The notes under the pieces: model-generated | Told to the model about the DNA's origin: nothing | The model's database searches: none | Seen by the model: the letters and a program-made list of their open reading frames with translations, nothing else | Assembly (NCBI GenBank): GCA_025964615.1 | Contig: JAOPYM010000501.1 | Span: 1-37,423, forward strand | Direction: 5' to 3' | Length of the DNA stretch: 37,423 nucleotides | DNA from: Actinomycetes bacterium | Lineage (GTDB): Bacteria; Actinomycetota; Actinomycetes; Streptosporangiales; Streptosporangiaceae | Position numbers and translations under genes: made by a program | Shown: positions 1 to 13,902 of the stretch, piece after piece | How the letters are laid out: every line of letters starts with the position of its first letter | How positions within the stretch are numbered: the stretch's first letter is position 1

Positions 1-872
1 ACGGAGATCAACGGCACGGCCGGAGGCGGCTCGGTGAGCGCTGGGGCCGGCGGTACCGCCGCGAGGTCGGCGGTGAGCGCGGTCAGCAGGTGCGCCACCC
101 GGGCGGCGGGCGCGGGCCGCGCCGCCGGGTTCTTGACCAGCAGCGCGGCGATGAGCTCCCACAGCGGGTCGGGGATCCCGGCGGGCCGTCCCGGAGCGCA
201 CTCGACGTGCCGCCGCAGGACCGACAGCGTGGACCCGCCGGTGAACGGCGTCGTCCCGCAGCACATCTCGTACAGCACGATGCCCAGGGCGTAGAGGTCG
301 GCGGACGGCGTGGGGATCTGGCCGTCGAACACCTCGGGCGCCACGTACTGCGGAGTGCCGACCAGCATGGTCGACCGGCCGCTGCCGGTCTGCTCGGCGA
401 TCCGCGCGATGCCGAAGTCGGTCAGCCTCGGCCTGGGCGGCGAGATCCGCCCGTCGAGCAGCAGGTTCTCCGGCTTGAGATCACGGTGCACGACCCCCGC
501 CGCGTGCACCGCCGAGAGCCCGGCGGCCATCTCGGCACCGATCCGGCAGACCTCGGCGGGCGGCAGGACACGGTACTGGCCGAGCAGGTCCCGCAGGTCC
601 CCTCCGGTGACCAGATCCATGACGATCGCCAGCGTCTCGCCCTCGACCACCAGATCGTGCACCTGGACCAGATTGGGATGGTTCACCCCGACCAGCAGCG
701 AGGCCTCCTGGATGAACCGGCGGACCGTCTCGTGGTCGCGGGCCAGCCCGTCGTGCAGGACCTTGAAGGCGAGCTCCTGGCCGTCGGCTGTGCGGCCCCG
801 CCAGACCTCGCCCGTCGCACCATGGCCCAGGGCCGACTCCAGGATGTACTTGCTTCCCAACGGGCGTTCCAC
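1..872 (-). CDS. Serine/threonine protein kinase (C-terminus off window)
   Basis: A Hanks-type (PknB-like) kinase read on the minus strand; its end lies beyond base 1. The visible 290 residues hold the glycine-rich loop GHGATGEVW (16-24), the ATP-binding lysine in AFKVL (K37), the catalytic loop HRDLKPEN (129-136), DFG (152-154) and a VAPE motif, so the catalytic domain looks complete and active. After the kinase lobe the chain becomes proline/alanine-rich, as in the linker before a membrane helix in this family, but the helix itself is not visible. The start is GTG at 872, preceded by AGAGGAG with 6 bases spacing. An FHA protein is encoded just upstream on the same strand, 124 bp away. FHA domains bind phosphothreonine, so a kinase-reader pairing is a reasonable inference. 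Confidence 0.93.
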   Translation of the reverse strand, partial: MERPLGSKYILESALGHGATGEVWRGRTADGQELAFKVLHDGLARDHETVRRFIQEASLLVGVNHPNLVQVHDLVVEGETLAIVMDLVTGGDLRDLLGQYRVLPPAEVCRIGAEMAAGLSAVHAAGVVHRDLKPENLLLDGRISPPRPRLTDFGIARIAEQTGSGRSTMLVGTPQYVAPEVFDGQIPTPSADLYALGIVLYEMCCGTTPFTGGSTLSVLRRHVECAPGRPAGIPDPLWELIAALLVKNPAARPAPAARVAHLLTALTADLAAVPPAPALTEPPPAVPLIS

Positions 873-996
873 CGCGTGCTCCTCTGGTCAGATGTCCAGG
901 CGGTCTGGCGGAGTCCGGCGGCCGACCGGCCCCGGTGCGATCGGCCGCCGGACATCCATCCTCGGAGACCTCCCGAGCCCTCGGCTATCCCCGAAG

Positions 997-1815
997 TCAG
1001 GGGTGGCGGCCCCACCACTTGTTCTCCTGGGCGGAAAGCCAGGCGTGATCGAGGGGGAGAGCGAGGTGACCCACGGTGATGATGTCGTAGTGCAGGAGCA
1101 CCGAGGCGACCGCCGTATTGGTCAGGTCGTGATCTGCGGAGACGAGTGCACGCTTACGGATCTTCGCGCGCAGTCCCTTGAGGTGCTCGTGGACCTGTGC
1201 GGACAGCCGCTGGCGCTCCTCGGGATCGGACGAGAAGAGCCGCAGCGCGTGGTGTGATCCGGTGACCCGCAGTGCCTCTTCGGCGATCTGCGGGGCGGAC
1301 GGCAGCGGCGCCATCCTGCTGGCGTCCAGGAGCCACGGGCGGCAGAGCAGGAGGGCGACCATGAACTCCTTGGTCAGGGTGTCGAGGGTCATCGGCAGCA
1401 CGGTGGTCGGCGCCCTGACCGACGGGGCCGAGGACTCGACCGGGTCGAGCGGCCACGAGGCGGGGAGCACGATGCGGACGGACTGGTCGGTGCCGGGGAC
1501 CGCGGTGGTCCCGACGGTCGCGGCGCCGGCGACCAGGAAACAGCCGATGTTGCCCGTCCCGGGGGAGAGCGTCGGCAGCCGTATCGTGTCGCCGTTCACC
1601 TGCACATACAGCGAGTGCTTCGCACTGAGATTGGTGACCCGGACGCCGTCGTCGAACGCGCAGATCTCCCCGGCCCGCCTCGACAACCAGGGGTCGGGCC
1701 CGAGCACCAGATCGACCTGCGGTCCCCGCCCGAAGGTCATGCGCTCCCCGGCGCGCAGCAGCCGTGGCTCCGCGCCAGGCCCCGTCACCTCGATGACTCC
1801 CAGCTCTGTGAGCAT
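997..1815 (-). CDS. FHA domain-containing protein
   Basis: The N-terminal part is a forkhead-associated (phosphothreonine-binding) domain, with FGRG at the start of the recognition loop, then LSRRAGEI and VTNLSAKHSLYV, matching the spaced Gly-Arg / Ser-Arg / Asn pattern of the fold. The remaining ~170 residues are not recognised; they lack membrane segments and include a basic stretch (HLKGLRAKIRKR). I chose ATG at 1815 because GGGGTGG precedes it; an in-frame ATG 11 codons upstream (1848) lacks a better site. The gene lies upstream of, and in the same orientation as, the Ser/Thr kinase, so it may be a substrate or adaptor of that kinase. That link is inference from context. The FHA assignment is firm; the C-terminal function is unknown. 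Confidence 0.85.
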   Translation of the reverse strand: MLTELGVIEVTGPGAEPRLLRAGERMTFGRGPQVDLVLGPDPWLSRRAGEICAFDDGVRVTNLSAKHSLYVQVNGDTIRLPTLSPGTGNIGCFLVAGAATVGTTAVPGTDQSVRIVLPASWPLDPVESSAPSVRAPTTVLPMTLDTLTKEFMVALLLCRPWLLDASRMAPLPSAPQIAEEALRVTGSHHALRLFSSDPEERQRLSAQVHEHLKGLRAKIRKRALVSADHDLTNTAVASVLLHYDIITVGHLALPLDHAWLSAQENKWWGRHP

Positions 1816-1915
1816 GTCCACCCCTGATGAGGAGCATGGCGTGCGCACGGGAGACGGCGACAGTTCGGGGTGTCCCGATTACCGGTCCATTTGTGGCGCA
1901 ACCGTCACAGGACGG

Positions 1916-2182
1916 TCACGACTTGTAGATGCCGTCGATCGTCGCGCTTGAGGGGTGGGAGAAGCAGTACGCGTCGACCGACAACTCGACCCCGTACACG
2001 CTGAGCATCCCGTTGGGCTGACTGCGGTCCTTGAGCATCTGGCTGACCGCGACGAGCCGGTCGTGGGTGTTCTTCGATCGGTAGTCGCCGCAGCTCAGAG
2101 CGCCCCCCGAGGAGCAGCCGGCGAGAGCGGCCAGCAGAGCGCCGGCCGTGGTGAACGCTGCGATGCGGGAACGGAATGTCAT
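1916..2182 (-). CDS. Small secreted lipoprotein, function unknown
   Basis: This 88-residue protein begins with an arginine-containing n-region and a hydrophobic stretch ending in LAGC, a clear lipobox, so Cys23 should be lipidated and the mature protein of about 65 residues anchored outside the membrane. The mature part has two further cysteines, one in SCGDY and one in AYCFSHPSS, which could form a disulfide. The C-x-D-Y ... Y-C-x-x-H-P spacing loosely resembles small HdeA-like periplasmic proteins seen in actinobacteria, but this is a weak impression and not an assignment. The ATG at 2182 is preceded by GGGAGG at 6 bases; a longer in-frame start at 2221 would bury the signal peptide. It is transcribed divergently from the HTH gene at 2323. 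Confidence 0.75.
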   Translation of the reverse strand: MTFRSRIAAFTTAGALLAALAGCSSGGALSCGDYRSKNTHDRLVAVSQMLKDRSQPNGMLSVYGVELSVDAYCFSHPSSATIDGIYKS

Positions 2183-2241
2183 CGTGGGCCTCCCTGGGAT
2201 GTGGTGGAGCGAGTGGACCACGCCCGGACTTGGGCCAATAA

Positions 2242-2257
2242 CCCCTGAGCTCGGGGG
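2242..2257. promoter_or_regulatory. Palindrome in divergent intergenic region
   Basis: CCCCTGAGCTCGGGGG is a 16-base near-perfect palindrome centred on GAGCTC. It lies between the start of the lipoprotein gene (2182, minus) and the HTH gene (2323, plus). It may be an operator or only a GC-rich palindrome; no promoter hexamers could be assigned with certainty. Confidence 0.25.
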
Positions 2258-2322
2258 AGCGGAACGCCTGCGCGCGGCCGTTTCGCGGGATACCGTCTAC
2301 CCGGCTGGGGGGAGGTGACCGG

Positions 2323-3843
2323 GTGCCGGGAGCTGGGGACGGTCTTCGGGTACCGGTGGACCAGGAGCGGGTCAAGGACGTCTTCCGCCGCTGCCTGCGC
2401 GCGATGGAGGCCCGGGGCATCCCGCCGACCGCGGCGGAGATCGCCCGGCGTACGGGTCTTGACGACGGTCAGGTCCGCAAGATCCTCAAGTGCGAGCGGC
2501 CGGTACGGCCGGGGTTCCTGCGGTCGCTCGGCGAGCTCGCCGGGCTGCCGGTGTCGGAGTTGTTCGCGGAGCTTGACTGGCTGCCCGAGTCGGAGGTCCT
2601 CGCTCCGATGTCGGCGACTCTCGCCGGCGAGACGCACGCGGCGCTCGAGGCCCTGGAGCGGGCGCGCCCGCACCTGGACCGGCTGACCGGTCCGGCGCTG
2701 CCCGCGCCGCTGGCCGCCGCCGGGGCGCTGCTCGCGGTCGCGGAGGGGGCCGAGCGTTTCGAGGTACGGCTGCGCCAGGTGGTCTCCGGCGGCCGGTACC
2801 GTACCGCCACCAACGGGGTCGGGGAGTTCCTGCTCCGGCCGGGCCACGACGCCCTGCCCTATGCGGAGGCCGCCGAACTGGCGGCCGTGGCCGGTGTACG
2901 TGACCTGCCGTCGCCGGTGGAGGCCGAGGCAGACCAGGAGTACTGGTCGGTCCATCTCGAACTCGCGGCCCGCACCCACCAGGCGCTGAACACCGGGCAG
3001 GAGTACAGCTGGCAGGGCGGCCCCGGGCACCGTACCTGGCGGTCCGCCGCGCAGTCCTGGCCCGCGCACCTGCTCGTCCAGGACCTGATCGGCGGCAGCC
3101 AGCAGCCGGAGGCGGGCGACCCGTGCGACCGGCCCGGCCTCGGGCCCATCGTCGTGCTCGGCGGCAGGCACGGCACCGGCCTGGCGGCCGCGCTGCTCGC
3201 CGAGGCACTCGGCTGGCAGTTCGTGCTGGTGCGGGAGAACATGGACGTGACCCGGCACGGTCACGTGGTCGGCGTCCCCGCGGACGCGCGCCGCGACCGT
3301 ACCCGCGCCTGGGTGTCGGTCGCCGGGCACATCGAGCGGACGGTGAGCCTGGGGCGTCCGTGGAAGGCGGTCGTGATGGTCCGCGCGGCGGCCTTCGCGG
3401 ACACCGGTGGGCCCTATGCCATGCGGCTGCTCCGTGACACGCCCGCCCAGGTGGTGTACGCCCGGGTACCGTCGGCCTACCTGGCCTGGTGGGCGGAACG
3501 GGAGGCGGGGAACTTCCCGCCGGGCGAGCGCGACGGTGCCGCCTGGGCGGACCGCACCGGCTCGCTCTACGCGCGGCTTGAGACCGTGCTGCGGGATCGG
3601 AACTCACCCCGGGACCTGCTGCTGCGGGTCCCGGAACCCCGCGCTGACCTGACTCCCTGCGTGCCCGAGATCCCCGGCGAGGTGATGGACTGGACGGCCC
3701 GCGTCGCGTGGACCGCGATCCGCCGCTTCGGCGAGCCGCCCGGGACGCGGCTGGGTCCGGTCCCGCTGCGTCCCGGGCGCCTGTCGGGCTGGCGGGAACT
3801 GCTGGCCGCCGACCCCCTGGCGATCGTGCCGACCCTCACGTGA
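2323..3843 (+). CDS. HTH-headed large protein, unknown function
   Basis: A 506-residue protein with an N-terminal XRE-like helix-turn-helix (about residues 10-60: TAAEIARRTGLDDGQVRKILKC, then FLRSLGELAGLPVSELF). A long C-terminal region follows with no membrane segment. Around residue 281 the sequence IVVLGGRHGTGLAAALLAEAL resembles a nucleotide-binding loop but lacks the GK[ST] of a Walker A motif, so NTP binding cannot be claimed. The start is GTG at 2323 after GGGGGGAGG. It is followed 219 bp later by a second HTH-headed protein. Possible roles are transcription regulation or a sensor in an HTH-plus-effector architecture. The HTH is supported; the rest is unrecognised. Confidence 0.8.
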   Translation: MPGAGDGLRVPVDQERVKDVFRRCLRAMEARGIPPTAAEIARRTGLDDGQVRKILKCERPVRPGFLRSLGELAGLPVSELFAELDWLPESEVLAPMSATLAGETHAALEALERARPHLDRLTGPALPAPLAAAGALLAVAEGAERFEVRLRQVVSGGRYRTATNGVGEFLLRPGHDALPYAEAAELAAVAGVRDLPSPVEAEADQEYWSVHLELAARTHQALNTGQEYSWQGGPGHRTWRSAAQSWPAHLLVQDLIGGSQQPEAGDPCDRPGLGPIVVLGGRHGTGLAAALLAEALGWQFVLVRENMDVTRHGHVVGVPADARRDRTRAWVSVAGHIERTVSLGRPWKAVVMVRAAAFADTGGPYAMRLLRDTPAQVVYARVPSAYLAWWAEREAGNFPPGERDGAAWADRTGSLYARLETVLRDRNSPRDLLLRVPEPRADLTPCVPEIPGEVMDWTARVAWTAIRRFGEPPGTRLGPVPLRPGRLSGWRELLAADPLAIVPTLT

Positions 3844-4062
3844 GCGTCAGTCGCCGTCCTCCTCGGTCCCTCGGGCCTTCGAACCAGATGAACGCATGCG
3901 GTTACTCATCGTGACCATCTTTCTGTACGGAGGTACGTCCTTCGCCGTGGTGATAGGGCATCTGCCACAGCCAGGCCGTCCAGACCAGGACAGCGCGTGG
4001 CCCCGCCGGCCGGGAAGAGCCCGTGAAATACTCGGACAAAGCCGTACAGAGGAAAACTCTTC

Positions 4063-7000
4063 ATGAGCGACCAGCCGTCCGACCTGAGTCACCTCCGTAC
4101 CCGCCGGGACTTCGCAGCCGAACTCACGCTGACCCGGGAACGCGCCGGGCTCACGGTCCGTGACGTCGCAAGCGCCCTCGACGTACCCGACAGCACCATC
4201 GGCGGCTACTTCAGCGGACGCCATCTGCCCACCGCGAAGCAGACCGAACTGATGCGCGGCATCCTGCGGCTCTGCGGAGTCTCGGGCGAGGCCGAGGTCC
4301 AGGAGTGGCTCCAGGCACTCGGCCGGGTACGGCGGGCCCCGGGGCGCCGGGCCGCGGCGGCGCCCAGCCCCTACCGAGGCCTGTCGAGTTTCCAGCCGGA
4401 GGATGCCGAGTGGTTCTACGGCAGGGAGCGGCTGACCCGGCTGCTCGTGGAGCGGCTGACCGAACGGCGCCTGCTCGCGGTGGTCGGGCCGTCCGGATCG
4501 GGCAAGTCGTCGCTGCTGCGCGCCGGTCTGATACCCGCGCTCGCGGCCGGGCACTGGCCGGTGCTGCTGATGACGCCGGGCGACCGGCCCGAGCCGCCCG
4601 AGCTGACCGAACGCCGGGTCGTCGTCGTGGACCAGTTCGAGGAGCTCTTCACCGCGAACTGCGATGAGGCGCAGCGGCAGGCGTTCATCGAGGCGCTGTG
4701 CACCGCGCCCCAGTCCCTGGTCGTGATCGGGCTGCGCGCCGACTTCTACCCGCAGGCGCTGCGCTACCCGAGGCTGGTCCCGGTCCTGCAGAACGACCAG
4801 GTCATCGTCGGCCCGATGACCGAACCGGAGCTTCGCAGCGCGATCGTCGAACCGGCCGCCCGGGCGCGGCTCGACCTTGAGGAGGGCCTGGTTGAGCTGC
4901 TGCTGCACGACCTGACACCGTCGGCGGCCGGGGAACAGGCCCATGACGCGGGCGCGCTGCCGCTGCTGTCCCACGCCCTGTTCACCACCTGGGAAAGAGG
5001 CCACCGCCGCAGGCTCACCGCGGCGGACTACCGCGACAGCGGCGGCATCAGCGGCGCCGTCGGGGCCACCGCCGAGGAGGCCTACGAGGGGCTCACCTCG
5101 GGGCAGCGCAGGCTGGCACGGCAGATCTTCGTACGCCTCGTGCACGTCGCGGACGACACCGGTGACACCCGGCGCCGCGTACCCCACGACGAACTGCTCC
5201 TGACCGGTGAGGACGCGGACGCCGTACTCGGCCGGTTCATCGAGCGGCGGCTGATCACCGCGGACGCCGGCCATGTGGAACTCACCCATGAGACGCTGCT
5301 GACGGCCTGGCCCCGGTTGCGCGGGTGGATCGACACCGACCGCGCGGGCCTGCGCACCCACCGGCAACTGACGGACGCCGCCGAGACCTGGCGTGAGTCC
5401 GGCCACGATCCGAACACGCTCTACAGGGGCGTACGGCTGGCGGGCGCCAGGGACCGGGCCGCCGATCCGCTGCATTCCGGTGACTTCAACGTGCTGGAGC
5501 GGCGGTTCCTCGACGCCAGCATCGAGCACGTGGCGGCCGAGACCCGTGCCGCGCGGCGGCGGACCCGGCGGCTGCAGCAGCTCCTGGCCGCACTGACGGT
5601 CCTCGTCGTGATCGCCGGTCTGCTCGCCGGCTACGCGTTCCGGCAGCGCGCGTCCGCCGACCAGCAGCGCGACCTGGCCATCTCCCGGCAGGTGGCCACC
5701 GAGGCCGGCAAGCTGCGGAGCACCGACCTCGCCCTGGCCGCGCAGCTCTCACTGGCCGCCTACCGCATCTCGCCGACCCCCGAGGCCAGGGCTGCCCTCC
5801 TGGAGTCCTACCCGGCCCCCGCGGTGACCCGGGTCCTGGGTCCGCCCGGGGTGATGCAGGCCGTGGCGGTCAGCCATGACCGGCACACCATGGCCGCCGC
5901 TGGCGCCGACATGACGGTACGGCTCTGGAACCTCGCACGACCCGGGCACCCCGCCGTGCTGGGCCGGCCGCTGACCGGGCACACCGACACGGTCTTCTCG
6001 GTCGCCTTCAGCCCGGACGGGCGGATCCTGGCGAGCGGCAGCGGCGACCGGACCGTGCGCCTGTGGGACGCGACCCGCGCGACGGCTCTCGGCGCACCCC
6101 TCACCGGGGCCACCAGCACGGTGTACTCGGTGACCTTCAGCCCGGACGGGCGGACCCTGGCCACCGCGAACGGCGATGGCACGGTACGGCTCTGGGACGT
6201 CACCGACCCACGGCACCCCGTGGTGCTCGGCGCGCCGCTGACCGGGCCCGCCGGAGCCGTCCAGGGGGTCGCTTTCAGCCCGGACGGCCGGGCACTCGCA
6301 GCCGGTGGTCTGGATCGCAAGGTGTGGACGTGGAACACCACGGACCTGCGGCACCCGGTGCCGCTCGGCCCGCCGCTGACCGGACCGGCGAAGGCGGTGT
6401 ACGGGGTGGCGTTCGGCCCGGACGGCCGCAGGCTCGCCGCGGCCGGCGCGGACGACTCCGTCTGGCTGTGGACCCTGGGCGGTTCGTCTGCGCCCGTCCG
6501 GCTGACCGGGCCGGCCAGCTTCGTCAACTCGGTGACGTTCAGCCCGGACGGGCTCAGTGTGGCCGCCGGGAGTTCCGACGGCAAAGCGTGGATCTGGGAT
6601 ACGGCGACCGGCAAGGTCACTGAGTCCCTGCCGCACCCCGGGCCGGTGACGGCCGTCGTGTTCCTCGGCGACGGTCACGCCGTGGCGACCAGCGCGGCCG
6701 ACGGGGTGGCCAGGCTCTGGGACCTGCCGGGCCCGCTGATCACCGGACCGGCCGACAACATCTTCACCGTGGCGTTCGGGACAGGGAACCACGTCCTGCT
6801 GGTGACCGGCGCGGACAACACCGCCCGGCTGTGGAACGTCGCCGATCCCCGCCACCCGATACCCCTCGGGCCCACCCTGACGAACACCACGAGAGCCGCC
6901 CGGGCCACCGGCGCCGCCGCGCTCAGCCCCGACGCGCACACCCTGGCCGTGGGCGACATCGAGGGCGGCGTGCAACTCTGGGACGTCTCCGACCCTCAGC

Positions 7001-7791
7001 ACCCGGTGCCCGTTCCGACCCGGCTGACCGGCCCTCCGAAGAACGTGGAGTCGATCACGTTCAGCCCGGACGGGCACGTCCTGGCGATCTCCGCCGACGA
7101 TGCGACGGTCCGGCTGTGGGATGTGACCGATCCGCTCCGCCCGGTGCGCAGGGGACCCCCGCTGACCGGCCCTTCGAGCTATGCCTATTCCCCGGTGTTC
7201 AGCCCGGATGGCCGTACCCTCGCCGAAGGCAGTGCCGACAAGACCGTCCGCCTCTGGGACCTCAGTGACCCCTCGCGGGCCGTCTCGCTCGGGCCCCCGC
7301 TGCGCCTGCACACGAGTTACGTCTTCGCCGTCGCGTTCAGCCCCGACGGCCGTACCCTCGTCACGGCCGGAGCCGACGACAAGGTGCAGCTCTGGGACGT
7401 CACCGACCGGCGCAGGCCGGCCCCGCTGGGGCCTGCGCTGACCGGACCGAGCAACTACGTGTTCTCGGTGGCCCTCAGCGCCGACGGCCGTCAGCTGGCG
7501 GCGGCCGCCGGAGACGGGACCACCTGGCTGTGGGACATCACCCGCCCGCGCAGCCCGCGGACCCTCGGCACGCTCACCGGGCCCACCGGTGCGGTGTTCG
7601 CCGACGCCTTCGACACCGGCCGCCCCCTGCTGGCCACCGCGGGACAGGACCGGACCGTCCGGCTCTGGAACACCGACCCCGTGCAGTCCGCGGCCTTCGT
7701 CTGCGCGGTCACCGGCGCCCCCATCACCAGGGCGGAATGGCAGGCCTACGTCCCGGGCCGCCCGTACGACCCGCCCTGTTTCACCAGGTGA
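4063..7791 (+). CDS. HTH-STAND NTPase-TM-WD40 repeat protein
   Basis: A 1242-residue multidomain protein. An XRE-like HTH occupies about residues 14-75 (ASALDVPDSTIGGYFSGRHLP). An nSTAND1-type NTPase module follows, starting at YRGLSSFQPEDAEWFYGRE, with Walker A GPSGSGKS (142-149) and Walker B VVVDQFEEL (187 on). A single hydrophobic helix lies at about 507-526. From about residue 600 there are 14 WD40 repeats, each ending in variants of VRLWD, enough for two seven-bladed propellers. The tail contains two cysteines (AFVCAVTG ... PPCFTR), a pattern often seen at the end of this actinobacterial family. The Walker A to Walker B distance is only about 45 residues, shorter than I expect for the family, so a segment may have been lost. 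The ATG at 4063 has AGAGGA upstream. STAND proteins are signalling switches, some acting in defence; the ligand here is unknown. Confidence 0.93.
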   Translation: MSDQPSDLSHLRTRRDFAAELTLTRERAGLTVRDVASALDVPDSTIGGYFSGRHLPTAKQTELMRGILRLCGVSGEAEVQEWLQALGRVRRAPGRRAAAAPSPYRGLSSFQPEDAEWFYGRERLTRLLVERLTERRLLAVVGPSGSGKSSLLRAGLIPALAAGHWPVLLMTPGDRPEPPELTERRVVVVDQFEELFTANCDEAQRQAFIEALCTAPQSLVVIGLRADFYPQALRYPRLVPVLQNDQVIVGPMTEPELRSAIVEPAARARLDLEEGLVELLLHDLTPSAAGEQAHDAGALPLLSHALFTTWERGHRRRLTAADYRDSGGISGAVGATAEEAYEGLTSGQRRLARQIFVRLVHVADDTGDTRRRVPHDELLLTGEDADAVLGRFIERRLITADAGHVELTHETLLTAWPRLRGWIDTDRAGLRTHRQLTDAAETWRESGHDPNTLYRGVRLAGARDRAADPLHSGDFNVLERRFLDASIEHVAAETRAARRRTRRLQQLLAALTVLVVIAGLLAGYAFRQRASADQQRDLAISRQVATEAGKLRSTDLALAAQLSLAAYRISPTPEARAALLESYPAPAVTRVLGPPGVMQAVAVSHDRHTMAAAGADMTVRLWNLARPGHPAVLGRPLTGHTDTVFSVAFSPDGRILASGSGDRTVRLWDATRATALGAPLTGATSTVYSVTFSPDGRTLATANGDGTVRLWDVTDPRHPVVLGAPLTGPAGAVQGVAFSPDGRALAAGGLDRKVWTWNTTDLRHPVPLGPPLTGPAKAVYGVAFGPDGRRLAAAGADDSVWLWTLGGSSAPVRLTGPASFVNSVTFSPDGLSVAAGSSDGKAWIWDTATGKVTESLPHPGPVTAVVFLGDGHAVATSAADGVARLWDLPGPLITGPADNIFTVAFGTGNHVLLVTGADNTARLWNVADPRHPIPLGPTLTNTTRAARATGAAALSPDAHTLAVGDIEGGVQLWDVSDPQHPVPVPTRLTGPPKNVESITFSPDGHVLAISADDATVRLWDVTDPLRPVRRGPPLTGPSSYAYSPVFSPDGRTLAEGSADKTVRLWDLSDPSRAVSLGPPLRLHTSYVFAVAFSPDGRTLVTAGADDKVQLWDVTDRRRPAPLGPALTGPSNYVFSVALSADGRQLAAAAGDGTTWLWDITRPRSPRTLGTLTGPTGAVFADAFDTGRPLLATAGQDRTVRLWNTDPVQSAAFVCAVTGAPITRAEWQAYVPGRPYDPPCFTR

Positions 7792-7809
7792 CCGGAAGCG
7801 ACTTCAGCT

Positions 7810-7844
7810 ATGTGTACCCACCTCGCGTTGAGGTGGGTACACAT
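7810..7844. terminator. Strong hairpin after the WD40 gene
   Basis: Perfect 15-base inverted repeat (ATGTGTACCCACCTC and its complement) around a GCGTT loop, starting 18 bases after the WD40 stop codon. There is no T-run, as is common in high-GC actinomycete terminators. It also lies where the opposing lactate permease remnant ends, so it may serve both strands. Confidence 0.75.
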
Positions 7845-7877
7845 CGATACCGGCTGGCAGGCGCACGATGTCTGTGG

Positions 7878-8952
7878 TCAGGGAACCATCCAGGAGAGGA
7901 CGCCGGTCGCTTTCCCGTGGCGGTGACCAGGTGCAGTCCTGGCCAGGCGATCATGTGGGTGGCCTTGTTGAGCTGCGTCTTGATCGCGTTGATCTGGCCG
8001 AGCACGAAGACCAGGATGATGATGGCGTACGGCGCGTACGCCCGGATGACGTCGGCCCGCGAGTCGCTCTGGGCGACCCGGGCGGCGAACTCCGGGGTCG
8101 GCTCGTCCACGCTGCCGCCGGCCACGACCACGGGCCGTACCGCCGCAGGCTGGAACCGGACGTACAGGACCACGACCGCGGCCGACACCAGCGAGGCGAC
8201 CACGTCGGCCAGCGGCACCGAGATGAAGTTCGACGTGACGTACTGCGCGACCGCGAAGGCGACCCCGCACACCACCGCGACCGGCCAGGTCTCCCGCAGG
8301 CCCCGGCGGCCGTCGACGATGAACACCAGCGCGAGCGGTACGAACAGAGCGAGGATCGGGGTCTGGCGTCCCACCATCGAGCCGAGCGTGTCCGACGACA
8401 GCGACGTGACCTTGCCCAGCGTGATGATCGGAGTGGCCATCCCCCCGAACGCCACCGGCACGGTGTTGGCCGTGAGCGCGAGCACCGCCGCCTTGAGCGG
8501 CTGGAAGCCCAGCGCGATCAGCATCACCGAGGTCACCGCGACCGGTGTCCCGAACCCGGCGAGCGCCTCGATCAGTGCCCGAACGAGAACGCGATGATGA
8601 TGGCCTGGATCCGCTGGTCGTCGCTGACCCGTCCGAACGAGCGGCGCAGCACATCGAAGTGACCGGTCTGGACCGTCATCGTGTAGACCCAGATCGCGTT
8701 GATCCCGATCCACAGGATCGGGAAGAACCCGAACGCCGCGCCCTCCGACCCGGCCAGCAGGGACTGCTCGACCGGCATGCCGTACACGGCGATCGCCATG
8801 ACGAGCGCCACGGCCAGCGCCACCAGCGACGCCGTCCAGGCCCGCATCCGGACCACTCCGAGCGGCACGAAGAGCACCACGAGGGGGAGCGCCGCGACCA
8901 GCGAACTCCAGGCGAGTGAGTGACCGACAGGTTCGAGAACCTGCTTGTACAT
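7878..8952 (-). pseudogene. L-lactate permease (LctP family), frameshifted and truncated
   Basis: The N-terminal part reads from ATG 8952 (MYKQVLEPVGHSLAWSSLVA) through several membrane helices to RIQAIIIAFSFG, then hits a stop. Family-like sequence resumes at once in another frame as ALIEALAGFGTPVAV and runs through NTVPVAFGGMATPI and VGRQTPILALFVPLALVF to about 7915 (WPGLHLVTATGK). Inserting one base into the CCC run at 8578-8580 restores a continuous reading, so a one-base deletion explains the break. After WPGLHLVTATGK the family similarity stops; about a third of the usual ~550-residue permease is missing. The intact gene would be a 12-14 helix proton-lactate/glycolate symporter. Both defects together favour a true pseudogene over a sequencing error, though the frameshift alone could be one. 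Confidence 0.85.
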
Positions 8953-9150
8953 GGCGTTCTGCGGATGGCCGGCACTGTGGTCCACGCCATAGTGATCCCC
9001 CGCCGCCGAGCCGTCCAGACCCAAGGCGACGCCGGGATCGTGAGGTCCGATCGCCACCGGAGCCGGGCGGCGCACGGCCTGAAATCCAGAGGCGCGCAGC
9101 AGGCCGAACCTGCATGATTGGGGCGATCAACCCCGACCGCAGGAGTGGTA

Positions 9151-11328
9151 GTGAGCCCGCACATCAGCGACCTGTTCGATCTGGCCGACCTGGCACAGGC
9201 AATCGGTGACGGTCATGTCCGTGTGCAGGTGCACCCCTCGCTGCCGCTCAAGATCATTAACTATACGGAGCGGGCGCAGTACGAGCGGGTCTGGACCGAC
9301 GTGACCCGCCAGTGCCGGGGTCTGATCGTCGACGAGCACGGTCGGGTCCTCGCCCGTCCGTACGCCAAGTTCTTCAACTACGGGGAGCACCCCGAAGGGT
9401 CCCTCGACCTGGCGGCCCGTGCCGTCGTCAGCGACAAGCTCGACGGCTGCTTCCCTCGCGGCACAGCCCTCAACCTTTGGGGCGGCGGCACTGTCACGAT
9501 CGATGAGGTAGTCGGCGGCAGGCTCCCCGTCACGCTCGTCGGCATGGACGAGCACGGTGAACTCGTTCCCGCAACAGTCACGGACTGGCACAGGAACGGC
9601 CGGAAGGATCACTGGCTCGACATCGAGGTTGGCGCCCGCGTATCCCGCATGTCGGGGTCCGCGGGCCATCCAAATCGCCTACGAGTCACGGTCAACCACC
9701 ACATCTGGGTGAACGGCGACTACCGCCCAGCCTGTGAGACCAAGCCCGGCGACAGGGTGACCACCCAGACGTGGCGCCCAAGTGACGAGGTCATCCGCCT
9801 TGTTCGCGCATCGTTGCTCGGCGATGGGTGCATCCTCTCGTCGGCGACGAAGCCGGGGCAGGCGAAGTACCAGGAGTCGCACAGCGCGAAACAGGCTGAC
9901 TACGCCGAAGCGCTTCGGAAGGTGCTCGGCGATTGCGCCGCGAACCGCAGTGACACCCGATCCGGCTGCGGAAGTCACATGGTGTGGGCAGGTTCCCGAG
10001 AGTACGAAGCCCTTGGGGACCTGCGTCGCGAGTGGTACCCGGACGGTGTCAAGCGCGTCCCTGCTGATCTGTCGTGGATGGACGACTACGCCGTGGCCAC
10101 ATGGCTTATGGATGACGGCTGCCGACAGCGCTTCAAACTCCAGGCCGATCGGATCTGTTTCTCGACTCACTCCTTCACGAAGGAGGAAATCGAACGTCTC
10201 GGCCACCGCCTGACAGAGATGTACGGCGTCAGCTATCACCTGTGCGACGATTCCGGCCGCGGCTGGACCCTGGTCGTCAACTCAGGCAGGAAGCAACAGA
10301 TCCAGCGGATGTGGGCGGCCATCACTCCACACGTGCATCCGTCGATGCGGTACAAGGTCCCTGAGCGGTATCGGGATGCCCTCTACGTTGAGCCTCAGCC
10401 CGGCAGGGAGGTGGCCGTTCCGCGCGAAGCCGAGGTCGTATCCGTCTCTTCAGTCGAGCCGAACAAACGCAACTTTCCGAGCGGACGCACAGGGTTCGAC
10501 GTCACCACGACCACGCACAACTACATGGCCCGAGGCGTCTTGGTCCACAACAGCCTCGGCATCCTCTACCCGGTGAACGGCGGCCACGCGATCGCCACCC
10601 GGGGCTCCTTCAGCTCCGACCAGGCGCTGCACGCGACCGGGCTCTGGCAGGAGCGGTACGCCGGGGTCACCACGGTCGAGCCGGGCATCACCTACCTGTT
10701 CGAGATCATCTACCCCGGCAACCGGATCGTCTGCGACTACGGGGACCTGGACGATCTCGTCCTGCTCGGCGGGGTCGAGATCGCCACCGGGATGCCGGTC
10801 CAGGTCTCCTGGCCCGGCCCGGCTGCCACGGTCTTCGAGTACGCCTCGCTCGGCGAGGCTCTCAAGGCCCCGCCGCGTCCCGGCGCGGAGGGTCTGGTGG
10901 TCCGGTTTCCCGATCACGGGCAGCTGATGACGAAAATTAAGCAGTCGGATTATGTGGCCCTGCACCGCATCGTGACCGGACTGAATGCCCGCGTGGTCTG
11001 GGAGCGGCTCGGTGACGGCGCCACGCCCGCAGAGGTCTGCGAGGGCCTGCCCGACGAGTTCCACAGCTGGGTGCGGAATGTCGCCGCAGAGCTGACCGGC
11101 CGGCGTGACCAGATCGTCGCCCTGGCATGGGCGGAGCATCAGGGCATCGTCGCCGCCCTGCCGGACGGCTGGACCCGCAAGGATTACGCCAAGGCCGCGG
11201 GCAGGTCCCGCAACCGGGCCTGGCTGTTCCTGCTGCTTGACGAGAAGGACCCCTCGGACAAGATCTGGCGTACCCTCCGCCCGTCCAGTGACGACCGGCC
11301 CGCCAACTACTCGGAGGACACTGCCTGA
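9151..11328 (+). CDS. T4 Rnl1-like RNA ligase precursor with intein
   Basis: The 725-residue precursor is an ATP-dependent RNA ligase split by an in-frame intein (9448-10551). Removing the intein leaves 357 residues, close to T4 RNA ligase 1 (374). Ligase hallmarks are RGLIVDEHGRVLARPYAKFF before the active site, nucleotidyl-accepting Lys96 in KLDG joined across the intein to SLGILY, YLFEIIYPGNRIV (motif III region), EGLVVRF (motif IV, precursor 580-586) and KIKQSDYV (motif V). This enzyme class seals 3'-OH/5'-phosphate RNA ends such as cleaved tRNA anticodon loops. The start is GTG 9151 with AGGAG at 9141-9145; a TTG at 9118 is less likely. Its stop overlaps the next gene's ATG by one base (TGATG), and that gene is a T4-type Pnkp, so the two form an end-healing and sealing cassette. 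Confidence 0.93.
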   Translation: MSPHISDLFDLADLAQAIGDGHVRVQVHPSLPLKIINYTERAQYERVWTDVTRQCRGLIVDEHGRVLARPYAKFFNYGEHPEGSLDLAARAVVSDKLDGCFPRGTALNLWGGGTVTIDEVVGGRLPVTLVGMDEHGELVPATVTDWHRNGRKDHWLDIEVGARVSRMSGSAGHPNRLRVTVNHHIWVNGDYRPACETKPGDRVTTQTWRPSDEVIRLVRASLLGDGCILSSATKPGQAKYQESHSAKQADYAEALRKVLGDCAANRSDTRSGCGSHMVWAGSREYEALGDLRREWYPDGVKRVPADLSWMDDYAVATWLMDDGCRQRFKLQADRICFSTHSFTKEEIERLGHRLTEMYGVSYHLCDDSGRGWTLVVNSGRKQQIQRMWAAITPHVHPSMRYKVPERYRDALYVEPQPGREVAVPREAEVVSVSSVEPNKRNFPSGRTGFDVTTTTHNYMARGVLVHNSLGILYPVNGGHAIATRGSFSSDQALHATGLWQERYAGVTTVEPGITYLFEIIYPGNRIVCDYGDLDDLVLLGGVEIATGMPVQVSWPGPAATVFEYASLGEALKAPPRPGAEGLVVRFPDHGQLMTKIKQSDYVALHRIVTGLNARVVWERLGDGATPAEVCEGLPDEFHSWVRNVAAELTGRRDQIVALAWAEHQGIVAALPDGWTRKDYAKAAGRSRNRAWLFLLLDEKDPSDKIWRTLRPSSDDRPANYSEDTA
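9448..10551 (+). other. Intein with LAGLIDADG homing endonuclease domain
   Basis: A 368-residue in-frame insertion in the RNA ligase, bounded by KLDG|C and HN|S. Block A is CFPRGTALNLW (Cys1). Block B is RVTVNHHIWV with the T-x-x-H pair, followed by YRPACETKPGDRV. Block F is FDVTTTTHNYMARG, and block G is VLVHN followed by Ser+1. All residues needed for class 1 splicing (Cys1, block B Thr/His, penultimate His, terminal Asn, Ser+1) are present. Two dodecapeptide motifs, SLLGDG (precursor 221-226) and WLMDDG (318-323), mark a LAGLIDADG endonuclease with both acidic residues kept. Codon third positions look richer in A/T than in the flanking ligase, consistent with transfer. Splicing should rebuild the ligase motif KLDGS. 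Confidence 0.93.
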
Positions 11329-12236
11329 TGGTCACCCTGCATCTGACCCGTGGCCTGCCGGCCAGCGGAAAGACGACCTGGGCGATGTCGTGGGTCGCGG
11401 AGGACCGCGCCGGCCGGGCCCGGGTCAACCGTGACGACCTGCGGAAGATGCTCGACGACGGTGTGCATGTGAAGGGCGTGACCGAGCAGCGGGTGATGGC
11501 CGTACGGGACGCCGCGATCGTCCGCATGCTCCGTAACGGCATCGACGTGGTCTGCGACGACACCAACCTGCCGCAGCGGATCGCCCGCGACCTGGCCCGC
11601 CTCGCGAAGCGGGCAGGCGCGAACCTGAAGGTCCATGACTTCACCCACGTTCCGCTGGAGGTCTGCATCGAGCGGGACGCCGCCCGGGACCGTACGGTCG
11701 GGGAGGAGCACATCCGCAACCTGCACGTACGGTTCCTCAACGGCCGTGCGCTGCCGCTCCCGTACCCGGAGGCGCTGCCGGAGACGGAAGCGCCGGCGCG
11801 GCTGTACAAGGCCCTGCCCGGCACGCCCAAGGCAGTTCTCGTCGACATCGACGGCACCGTCGCCCTGATGTCGGGCCGCAGTCCGTTCGACGAGACCCGG
11901 GTTCACCAGGACCGGCCCAACCGGCCGGTGATCGCGGTCGTCCGTGCCCTGCACGCCGCGGGGAACCGGATCGTGTTCCTGTCGGGCCGTACCGAAGGAT
12001 GCCGGACCGACACCGAGAGGTGGCTCACCGAGCATGTCGGGGTGCCGTTCGAAGGCCCGCACATGCGGCCGGTCGGCGACTCCCGCAAGGACTCGATCGT
12101 CAAGTCCGAACTGTTCGACGCCCAGATCCGGGAGGCGTACGACGTGGTGTGCGTCCTCGACGACCGCAACCAGGTCGTCGAGGCGTGGCGGGCCATGGGC
12201 CTCACCGTCCTCCAGGTGGCCGAGGGGAACTTCTGA
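11328..12236 (+). CDS. T4 Pnkp-like polynucleotide 5'-kinase/3'-phosphatase
   Basis: A 302-residue two-domain end-healing enzyme in T4 Pnkp order. The N-terminal kinase has the P-loop GLPASGKTT (9-17) and VNRDDLR (33-39), matching the T4 catalytic Asp/Arg motif. A linker leads into a HAD-type phosphatase with DIDGT (173-177; nucleophile D173), then FLSGRTEG, GDSRKDSIVK and CVLDDRNQVVEAWR, ending QVAEGNF much like the T4 enzyme. It should add 5'-phosphate and remove 3'-phosphate or 2',3'-cyclic phosphate from broken RNA so that the ligase can seal it. The start ATG overlaps the ligase stop by one base, indicating translational coupling. There is no methyltransferase or fused ligase domain, which separates it from bacterial Pnkp/Hen1 systems. 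Confidence 0.95.
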   Translation: MVTLHLTRGLPASGKTTWAMSWVAEDRAGRARVNRDDLRKMLDDGVHVKGVTEQRVMAVRDAAIVRMLRNGIDVVCDDTNLPQRIARDLARLAKRAGANLKVHDFTHVPLEVCIERDAARDRTVGEEHIRNLHVRFLNGRALPLPYPEALPETEAPARLYKALPGTPKAVLVDIDGTVALMSGRSPFDETRVHQDRPNRPVIAVVRALHAAGNRIVFLSGRTEGCRTDTERWLTEHVGVPFEGPHMRPVGDSRKDSIVKSELFDAQIREAYDVVCVLDDRNQVVEAWRAMGLTVLQVAEGNF

Positions 12237-12471
12237 TCCGGGCTGCTTGGCGGTGTGCCGGGCTGTGACCGTCCGAGGCGACACTGCTCAGGCTCCGATC
12301 AGCAGGTCGCGGTGGTGCTCCATCAGGTCGGGTGGGTTCGGTTACGCGTCGGCAGGGTAGTCCGCGGATCTGCTGACCTAGGCCCATTTCTCGGCTTCAC
12401 GAGGTGGTGGTGATCTGCCGGAACTGTTGGTGGCCGGGGTTGCTGCATCCGTGCTCGTCTGAACGGCCGCC

Positions 12472-13902
12472 TCAGAGCAGGTCGCGTTTCAGCGCGAGGC
12501 GGGCGGCCTGCCTGCCGCCCATGCCGTGTACGGCCGCGCCGGGCGGGGTGCTCGCCGAACACAGGTAGAGCCCCGGTACCGGTGTCGCCCACGGGTGCCG
12601 GGCGTACACCGGGCGGCCGGCGAACTGGCTCAGCCGGGCCGAGCCGCCGCCGATGTCACCGCCGACCAGGTTGGGGTTGTACGACTCCAGGGCGGCCGGG
12701 TTCATCACGTGACGGGCCAGCACGAGGTCGCGGAAGCCGGGCGCGAACCGTTCGATCTGATCCTCGATGGCCTTGGTCATGTCGGTGCCCGAGCCGTTCG
12801 GGACATGACAATAGGCCCACAGGACGTGGGAGCCGGCGGGCGCGCGGCCGGGATCGGCCACGGACGGCTGGACCAATAGCACGTACGGCCGGTCGGGATG
12901 CCGTCCCCTGGCCACCTCCGCCTCGCTGTGCGCGATCTCCTCCAAGGTGCCGCCGAGGTGCACGGTCGCCGCGTCGGACACCCTCGGGTCGCGCCAGGGG
13001 AGGGGCCCGGACAGTGCCCAGTCGATCTTGTAGACGCCGGGGCCGTACCGGAACCGGCCCAGCGCGCGCCGGTAGCCGGCCGGCAGCCGGTCGCCGGCGA
13101 CGGCGAGGACCTGGCGCGGGGTGAGATCGAGCAGGATCGAGCGGGCGTCGGGCAGCTCGCCCAGGTCGCGGACCAGGTGACCGGCGACGGTCTCGCCGCC
13201 GAGCCGCACCAGCCGGGCGACCAGGGCGTCGGCCAGCGTCTGGGAGCCGCCGCGAGCGACGGGCCAGCCCACCTGGTGGGCCAGCGCGGCCAGCAGCATG
13301 CCGTACCCGGCGGTGATGGGGGCACCCAGGTCGAGCATGGAGTGGGCGGCCATGCCCGCGAGCACGGCCCGCCCCTGCGGGGTGCGGAACACCGTCCGGG
13401 CCAGCCAGGTGGCGGGCAGCGCGCCGAACGCCCCGAACCGGGCGGCCCGCAGCGGGGCCCGAGGCGGGCTGAGCGGGGCGAGCAGCGTGTCGACCAGCGG
13501 CGCGCCCGCCCGGGCGGTCGCGCCCACGGTTGCCCGCCAGGCGGCGGCGTCCCGGCCGAGTTCCACCGCGGTGCGTTCGGCGTCACGATGGACGAGTACG
13601 GCGGGCCGTCCGTCCAGGGGATGCGCGGCCGGTACGGGGGGATGCGCCCACTCGACGCCGTCCTTCTCCAGATCCAGTTCCCGGAACGCAGGCGAGGCCA
13701 GCGCCATCGGCAGCACGGTCGCGCAGACGTCGTGGCGGAAGCCGGGCAGGGTGAGCTCCTCGGTGCGCAGCCCGCCGCCGAACCGGCCGGCGGCCTCCAC
13801 GAGCAGCACCCGCTGCCCGGCCTCGGCGAGGGTGACCGCGGCGACCAGGCCGTTGGGCCCCGAGCCCACCACCACGGCGTCGAAGCCGTCCGCGCGGGTC
13901 AT
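12472..13902 (-). CDS. FAD-dependent oxidoreductase, phytoene desaturase-like
   Basis: This 476-residue protein starts with a Rossmann ADP-binding motif, AVVVGSGPNGLVAAVTLAEAG followed by an acidic strand end (LLVEAAGRFGG), typical of the CrtI/PYROXD2-like NAD(P)/FAD oxidoreductases. The C-terminal flavin-contacting region GLYLCSASTPPGAAVHGMGGRQAA is also characteristic. There are no adjacent carotenoid genes, so the substrate is unknown and a carotenoid role is not implied. The ATG at 13902 overlaps the stop of the preceding histidine-kinase remnant by four bases (ATGA), which shows an ancestral operon. Because that upstream gene has lost its 5' end and presumably its promoter, expression of this gene may have changed. 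Confidence 0.88.
   Translation of the reverse strand: MTRADGFDAVVVGSGPNGLVAAVTLAEAGQRVLLVEAAGRFGGGLRTEELTLPGFRHDVCATVLPMALASPAFRELDLEKDGVEWAHPPVPAAHPLDGRPAVLVHRDAERTAVELGRDAAAWRATVGATARAGAPLVDTLLAPLSPPRAPLRAARFGAFGALPATWLARTVFRTPQGRAVLAGMAAHSMLDLGAPITAGYGMLLAALAHQVGWPVARGGSQTLADALVARLVRLGGETVAGHLVRDLGELPDARSILLDLTPRQVLAVAGDRLPAGYRRALGRFRYGPGVYKIDWALSGPLPWRDPRVSDAATVHLGGTLEEIAHSEAEVARGRHPDRPYVLLVQPSVADPGRAPAGSHVLWAYCHVPNGSGTDMTKAIEDQIERFAPGFRDLVLARHVMNPAALESYNPNLVGGDIGGGSARLSQFAGRPVYARHPWATPVPGLYLCSASTPPGAAVHGMGGRQAARLALKRDLL

Follow-up and report, generated by a model that had tools for sequence, protein, structure and literature searches.

Intein in the RNA ligase gene

The RNA ligase encoded on the plus strand of the 37,423-nt actinomycete contig analyzed here (the window, meaning this whole stretch of DNA) very probably carries a class 1 LAGLIDADG intein, inserted in frame between the Gly and Ser residues of motif I of a T4-Rnl1-type enzyme. 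This reading, which includes the predicted splicing and homing of the element, is given a probability of roughly 0.93. The initial annotation had proposed a 368-residue intein starting three residues past the catalytic lysine of an Rnl1-type ligase, and the active-site residues, profile matches, predicted fold, and empty sites in related genes all agree with that proposal.

The previously described open reading frame (9118/9151-11328) was confirmed. Its GTG start codon at position 9151 has an AGGAG sequence upstream, and an in-frame TTG at 9118 is a possible alternative start; counted from the GTG, the precursor consists of 725 residues. Motif I (KLDG|S) is interrupted by the insert after Gly99 and before Ser100, three residues past Lys96. 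Both exteins are intact, and the frame contains no frameshift or stop. The coordinates of the individual parts, together with the adjacent kinase-phosphatase gene, are listed in Table 1.

Table 1. Features of the intein-bearing ligase gene and the gene that follows it (positions in the window)
Feature	Positions	Strand	Remarks
N-extein	9151..9447	+	First 99 ligase residues, the last four being K-L-D-G of motif I
Codon for K96, the putative catalytic (adenylated) lysine of motif I	9436..9438	+	Aligned with the KEDGS motif of T4 Rnl1
Intein	9448..10551	+	368 aa, from Cys1 to His367-Asn368
N-terminal splicing (Hint) part	9448..9771	+	Cys1; block B T81-V-N-H84
LAGLIDADG homing endonuclease domain	9790..10377	+	Motifs LLGDG (D126) and LMDDG (D222, D223); PF03161 and I-SceI match
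C-terminal splicing part	10378..10551	+	D351, N358-Y359, V-L-V-H-N; TIGR01443
C-extein	10552..11325	+	Ser+1 and the remaining ligase residues; motif III near FEIIYPGNRIV, motif IV AEG, motif V K227/K229
Ligase stop codon TGA	11326-11328	+	
Pnkp-like protein, P-loop kinase and HAD phosphatase	11328..12236	+	PF25109 (6e-55), PF13671; resembles Pnkp1 (4xrp) and T4 Pnk (1ltq)

The ligase and its partner kinase-phosphatase

Removal of the insert in silico leaves a protein of 357 residues (counted from GTG 9151), the length given in the initial annotation, and raises the scores against both relevant profiles. The score against PF09511 (RNA_lig_T4_1) increases from 33.9 bits in the interrupted form to 42.8 bits in the joined form, with the gathering score of 28.3 passed both ways, and that against TIGR02308 increases from 38.6 to 59.8 bits. 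The TIGR02308 equivalog cutoff of 242.25 is reached neither by the joined ligase nor by an uninterrupted homologue (54.5 bits); judged from these profiles, the joined ligase is Rnl1-like and not an equivalog of T4 RnlA. Alignment of the spliced extein to T4 Rnl1, suggested at the outset, gave a phmmer match to 2c5u over residues 47-260 (E = 9.5e-11), in which the nucleotidyltransferase motifs I, III, IV, and V line up. Residues K96, D98, G99, E150, E212, K227, and K229 are invariant in an alignment with five uninterrupted relatives. By sequence, the protein is a T4-Rnl1-type RNA ligase, and its ligase activity is predicted from that assignment; adenylation of the motif I lysine has been described for T4 Rnl2 (PMC3149579).

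The ATG of the Pnkp-like gene overlaps the stop codon of the ligase gene (TGATG), and the ligase-Pnkp pair is found in most actinobacterial loci, including that of Dactylosporangium fulvum. In the T4 system, Pnk and Rnl1 heal and then seal tRNA that has been cut by a bacterial anticodon nuclease (PMC2610378). By analogy, the actinobacterial pair can reasonably be predicted to act in RNA repair.

Sequence and predicted structure of the intein

The insert and its junction contain Cys1, the block B residues Thr81 and His84 (TxxH), Asp351, the penultimate His367, the terminal Asn368, and Ser+1. In an alignment of 25 inteins, Cys1, Thr81, His84, Asp351, His367, and Asn368 are invariant. Both LAGLIDADG motifs are intact, and the match to PF03161 (LAGLIDADG_2) is above the cutoff, with E values of 2e-20 and 7e-20. 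The general intein profiles respond less clearly: TIGR01443 (intein_Cterm) scores 16.1 in the precursor and 14.8 in the intein alone against a cutoff of 15.6, PF14890 (Intein_splicing) scores 19.6, below its gathering score of 35.8, and the profile search of the precursor protein reported no match to TIGR01445 (intein_Nterm). The latter two results indicate that the N-terminal motif is divergent by sequence.

The AlphaFold2 model of the intein, for which one intein row from a plasmid record was left out of the underlying alignment, has a pLDDT of 92.9. Its splicing part resembles the Mtu RecA intein 2imz (Z = 22.1, root mean square deviation of 1.6 Å over 141 residues) and its endonuclease part resembles I-SceI 1r7m (Z = 21.6, 2.4 Å over 190 residues). 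The model of the complete precursor matches T4 Rnl1 2c5u and homing endonucleases; since its junction loops (residues 99-108 and 459-467) have pLDDT values below 50, and its pTM is 0.48, it does not establish the geometry of the precursor.

In comparison with the D. fulvum intein, codon positions 1 and 2 are conserved while position 3 has diverged. The dN/dS ratio of the intein is 0.15 and that of its endonuclease part 0.13, both being rough figures because dS is high. By this codon comparison, the intein and its endonuclease are under purifying selection.

Empty sites in related ligases

At this site, 97 ligases in the tree are uninterrupted, and homologues that share 65-69% identity with the studied ligase have no insert. 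Five uninterrupted relatives, when aligned, show a continuous DK-x-DGSLG sequence with invariant K, D, G, and S.

The clearest comparison comes from D. fulvum (L092, NZ_CP073720.1), which has a 369-residue intein at the identical codon. The inteins of the two loci are 72% identical and the ligases 55% identical; the D. fulvum copy comes from a complete chromosome and the studied locus from a 614-contig assembly. In the sister species D. roseum the site is empty. The flanking DNA of the two Dactylosporangium species is 93% (left) and 96% (right) identical, and their DNA alignment breaks exactly at the insert junctions. The in-frame insert is absent from otherwise near-identical alleles, and the empty alleles of the sister species suggest that the intein is dispensable.

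The D. fulvum copy surfaced only in a scan of named genomes. Neither the 199 related genomes nor the 395 genomes from the class yielded another intein-bearing Rnl1 gene, and the family- and phylum-wide intein searches returned only RecA inteins among the matches listed. Locus L125, a partial match without motif I, turned out to be a frame-broken stretch that holds no intein.

Viral carriers and lateral movement

Five viral Rnl1-type ligases (L165, L186, L192, L197, and L204) bear related inteins at the same site. The one in the phage ligase L192 (positions 2204-2704), whose sequence recurs on another contig as L191, is a 167-aa mini-intein that has lost the endonuclease and kept the splicing blocks. 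Both L191 and L192 had at one point been taken for uninterrupted genes, as the aligner had bridged the mini-intein. Two other candidates, L202 and L203, came from a phage DNA-pattern scan with an AGY serine and proved to be chance matches; L204 is real.

In the ligase tree, the seven intein carriers occupy seven separate places, with the studied ligase grouping with those of Streptomyces and Actinocorallia (99) and the D. fulvum ligase with those of its own genus (99). In the intein tree, all seven ligase inteins form a single clade (99/93), apart from the RecA inteins; the inteins of a phage structural protein (L188) and a DRB0094-type viral ligase (L189) fall within or beside it. One intein clade on such scattered ligase hosts indicates that the element moves laterally, and the discordance of the two trees is what repeated homing would give. 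A more sweeping scheme, in which a single intein lineage is specialized on the KxDG|S active-site codons of nucleotidyl-transfer RNA ligases, crosses between phages and actinomycetes and between the Rnl1 and DRB0094/Rnl5 families, and through its splicing makes RNA repair conditional on cell state in some hosts, is unlikely when taken as a whole.

Positions 976-12822 of the viral contig L188 encode a phage structural-type protein of 3948 aa in which several inteins seem to be present. The one that belongs to the ligase-intein family interrupts the sequence GKIDG|SMVG, whose resemblance to ligase motif I suggests off-target homing. Motif I of the viral ligases L160, L162, and L164 has the form KxNGC, the Ser of the other ligases being a native Cys here.

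Relation to known inteins

RtcB proteins are not related to these ligases and work by a different mechanism. They are a class of RNA ligases already known to carry inteins (NCBIfam NF038162 and NF052663). Among the RecA inteins, those at the RecA-b site of actinobacteria (MFG|C...HN|SPETTTGG) are similar to the ligase intein in size (∼364 aa), in the combination of Hint and LAGLIDADG_2 domains, and in the G|C...HN|S junctions, with ∼30% identity over the full length, but differ from it in having RecA as the host and in forming a separate clade (100/99). The Mtu RecA intein (PI-MtuI; 2imz and related entries) shares the fold of the splicing domain (Z = 22) but is found in a different host protein at a different site and is only ∼26% identical over the aligned splicing residues.

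Closer parallels by position come from other RNA ligases. Cluster J mycobacteriophages (Phoebus, KashFlow, and others) have a LAGLIDADG intein of ∼28% identity at the same motif I position (KLHG|S), but their ligase is of the PF09414 type with a weak PHA02142 OB-fold match, and the only names given to these proteins are “RNA ligase” and “HNH endonuclease.” The latter name is used for the intein-bearing RNA ligase of Mycobacterium phage Hannaconda (MN586029.1) and looks wrong, because the related Phoebus intein matches LAGLIDADG_2. The RNA ligase from a Miltoncostaea oceani plasmid likewise has an intein at this position (KSHG|S); that ligase is of the DRB0094/Rnl5 type (PF09414), and its intein is 27% identical to the studied one. 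In Pseudaeromonas phage KLEP7 (UNY40322.1; L041, positions 2501-3589), the protein is annotated in GenBank as “intein-containing RNA ligase”; its intein is related to the studied one but is inserted at GEWAG|S, probably motif III, and branches with the RecA inteins. The KLEP7 insertion marks a second position at which RNA ligases are interrupted.

The open-access literature yielded no description of inteins in Rnl1-type ligases, an outcome that is weak evidence of absence; the word “ligase” is absent from the survey of mycobacteriophage inteins (PMC5050341). The initial annotation was not aware of any described intein of this kind. This stands for the motif I site of Rnl1 but not for RNA ligases in general, as the KLEP7 and Cluster J proteins were already in GenBank. 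The element itself is of a known kind; what is new is the family of its host and the place of insertion, and its lateral movement is recorded with unusual clarity. T4-Rnl1-type RNA ligases are added to the list of intein hosts, at an insertion site common to actinomycete chromosomes and phages, and with D. fulvum and D. roseum nature supplies a pair of alleles on which homing between cellular genes could be tested.

Proposed mechanism and alternative explanations

The intein would be expected to excise itself by the standard class 1 route, i.e., an N-S shift at Cys1, transesterification to Ser+1, and cyclization of the terminal Asn. Splicing would join KLDG to SLGILY and release the 357-residue ligase, an enzyme that presumably joins RNA ends once the Pnkp-like product of the next gene has healed them; that the unspliced precursor is inactive is a sound inference. 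Ligase alleles that lack the intein would be cleaved by its endonuclease at the conserved codons of motif I, whereupon repair would copy the intein in; the same element has entered actinomycete and phage ligases many times. The scattered distribution, the empty sister alleles, and the retained endonuclease fit a selfish homing element.

The initial annotation went further and held that splicing gates RNA repair. If splicing were slow or responsive to redox state, zinc, or RNA damage, it could time the RNA ligase activity, as proposed for mycobacterial DnaB inteins. The insert does split the nucleotidyl motif, so that an unspliced pool should be inactive, and there is a precedent in the conditional splicing reported for mycobacterial DnaB inteins (PMC6195587, PMC7360933). 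Yet the sister species and the nearest relatives have the ligase-Pnkp pair without any intein, the intein is sporadic, its endonuclease is kept under purifying selection, and no extra regulatory domain was seen in it. The phage mini-intein with its splicing blocks is explained by selection for a functional ligase alone. Nothing points to conditional splicing beyond the trivial need to splice, and regulation of this kind is quite improbable. Were it to occur, protein splicing would be linked with the repair of RNA, which has a known place in the struggle of phages with bacterial defenses that cut tRNA (PMC2610378).

Less probable still is an intein in decay that has lost splicing and left the ligase gene dead. 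The weak scores against the general intein profiles could be read in this way, but no catalytic residue is missing and none varies among relatives, the exteins and the reading frame are undamaged, the model fits the Mtu RecA intein with a deviation of 1.6 Å, and the divergence from D. fulvum is concentrated at codon position 3. The notion that this ligase subfamily normally possesses the segment as an additional domain, for which no supporting point was found, can be dismissed given its Hint and LAGLIDADG fold and the uninterrupted relatives in every neighboring clade, and it is refuted by the near-identical empty site of D. roseum.

Other features of the genome and the window

The RecA protein of the same genome (L002, positions 757-3186; G000:C426) contains a different intein at the RecA-a site (KVVKNK|C...HN|CSPPFK). 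Together with the motif I intein of the ligase, this makes at least two distinct intein insertions in the genome. Upstream of the ligase gene, the minus strand at positions 7808-9130 encodes an L-lactate permease (PF02652) spread over two frames, with the 8572-9075 frame corresponding to profile positions 2-111 and the 7808-9130 frame to positions 112-311; either a frameshift in the gene or an error in sequencing could account for this. Farther upstream, the plus strand at 4063-7791 encodes a 1242-aa protein that combines an nSTAND1 NTPase domain with many WD40 repeats.
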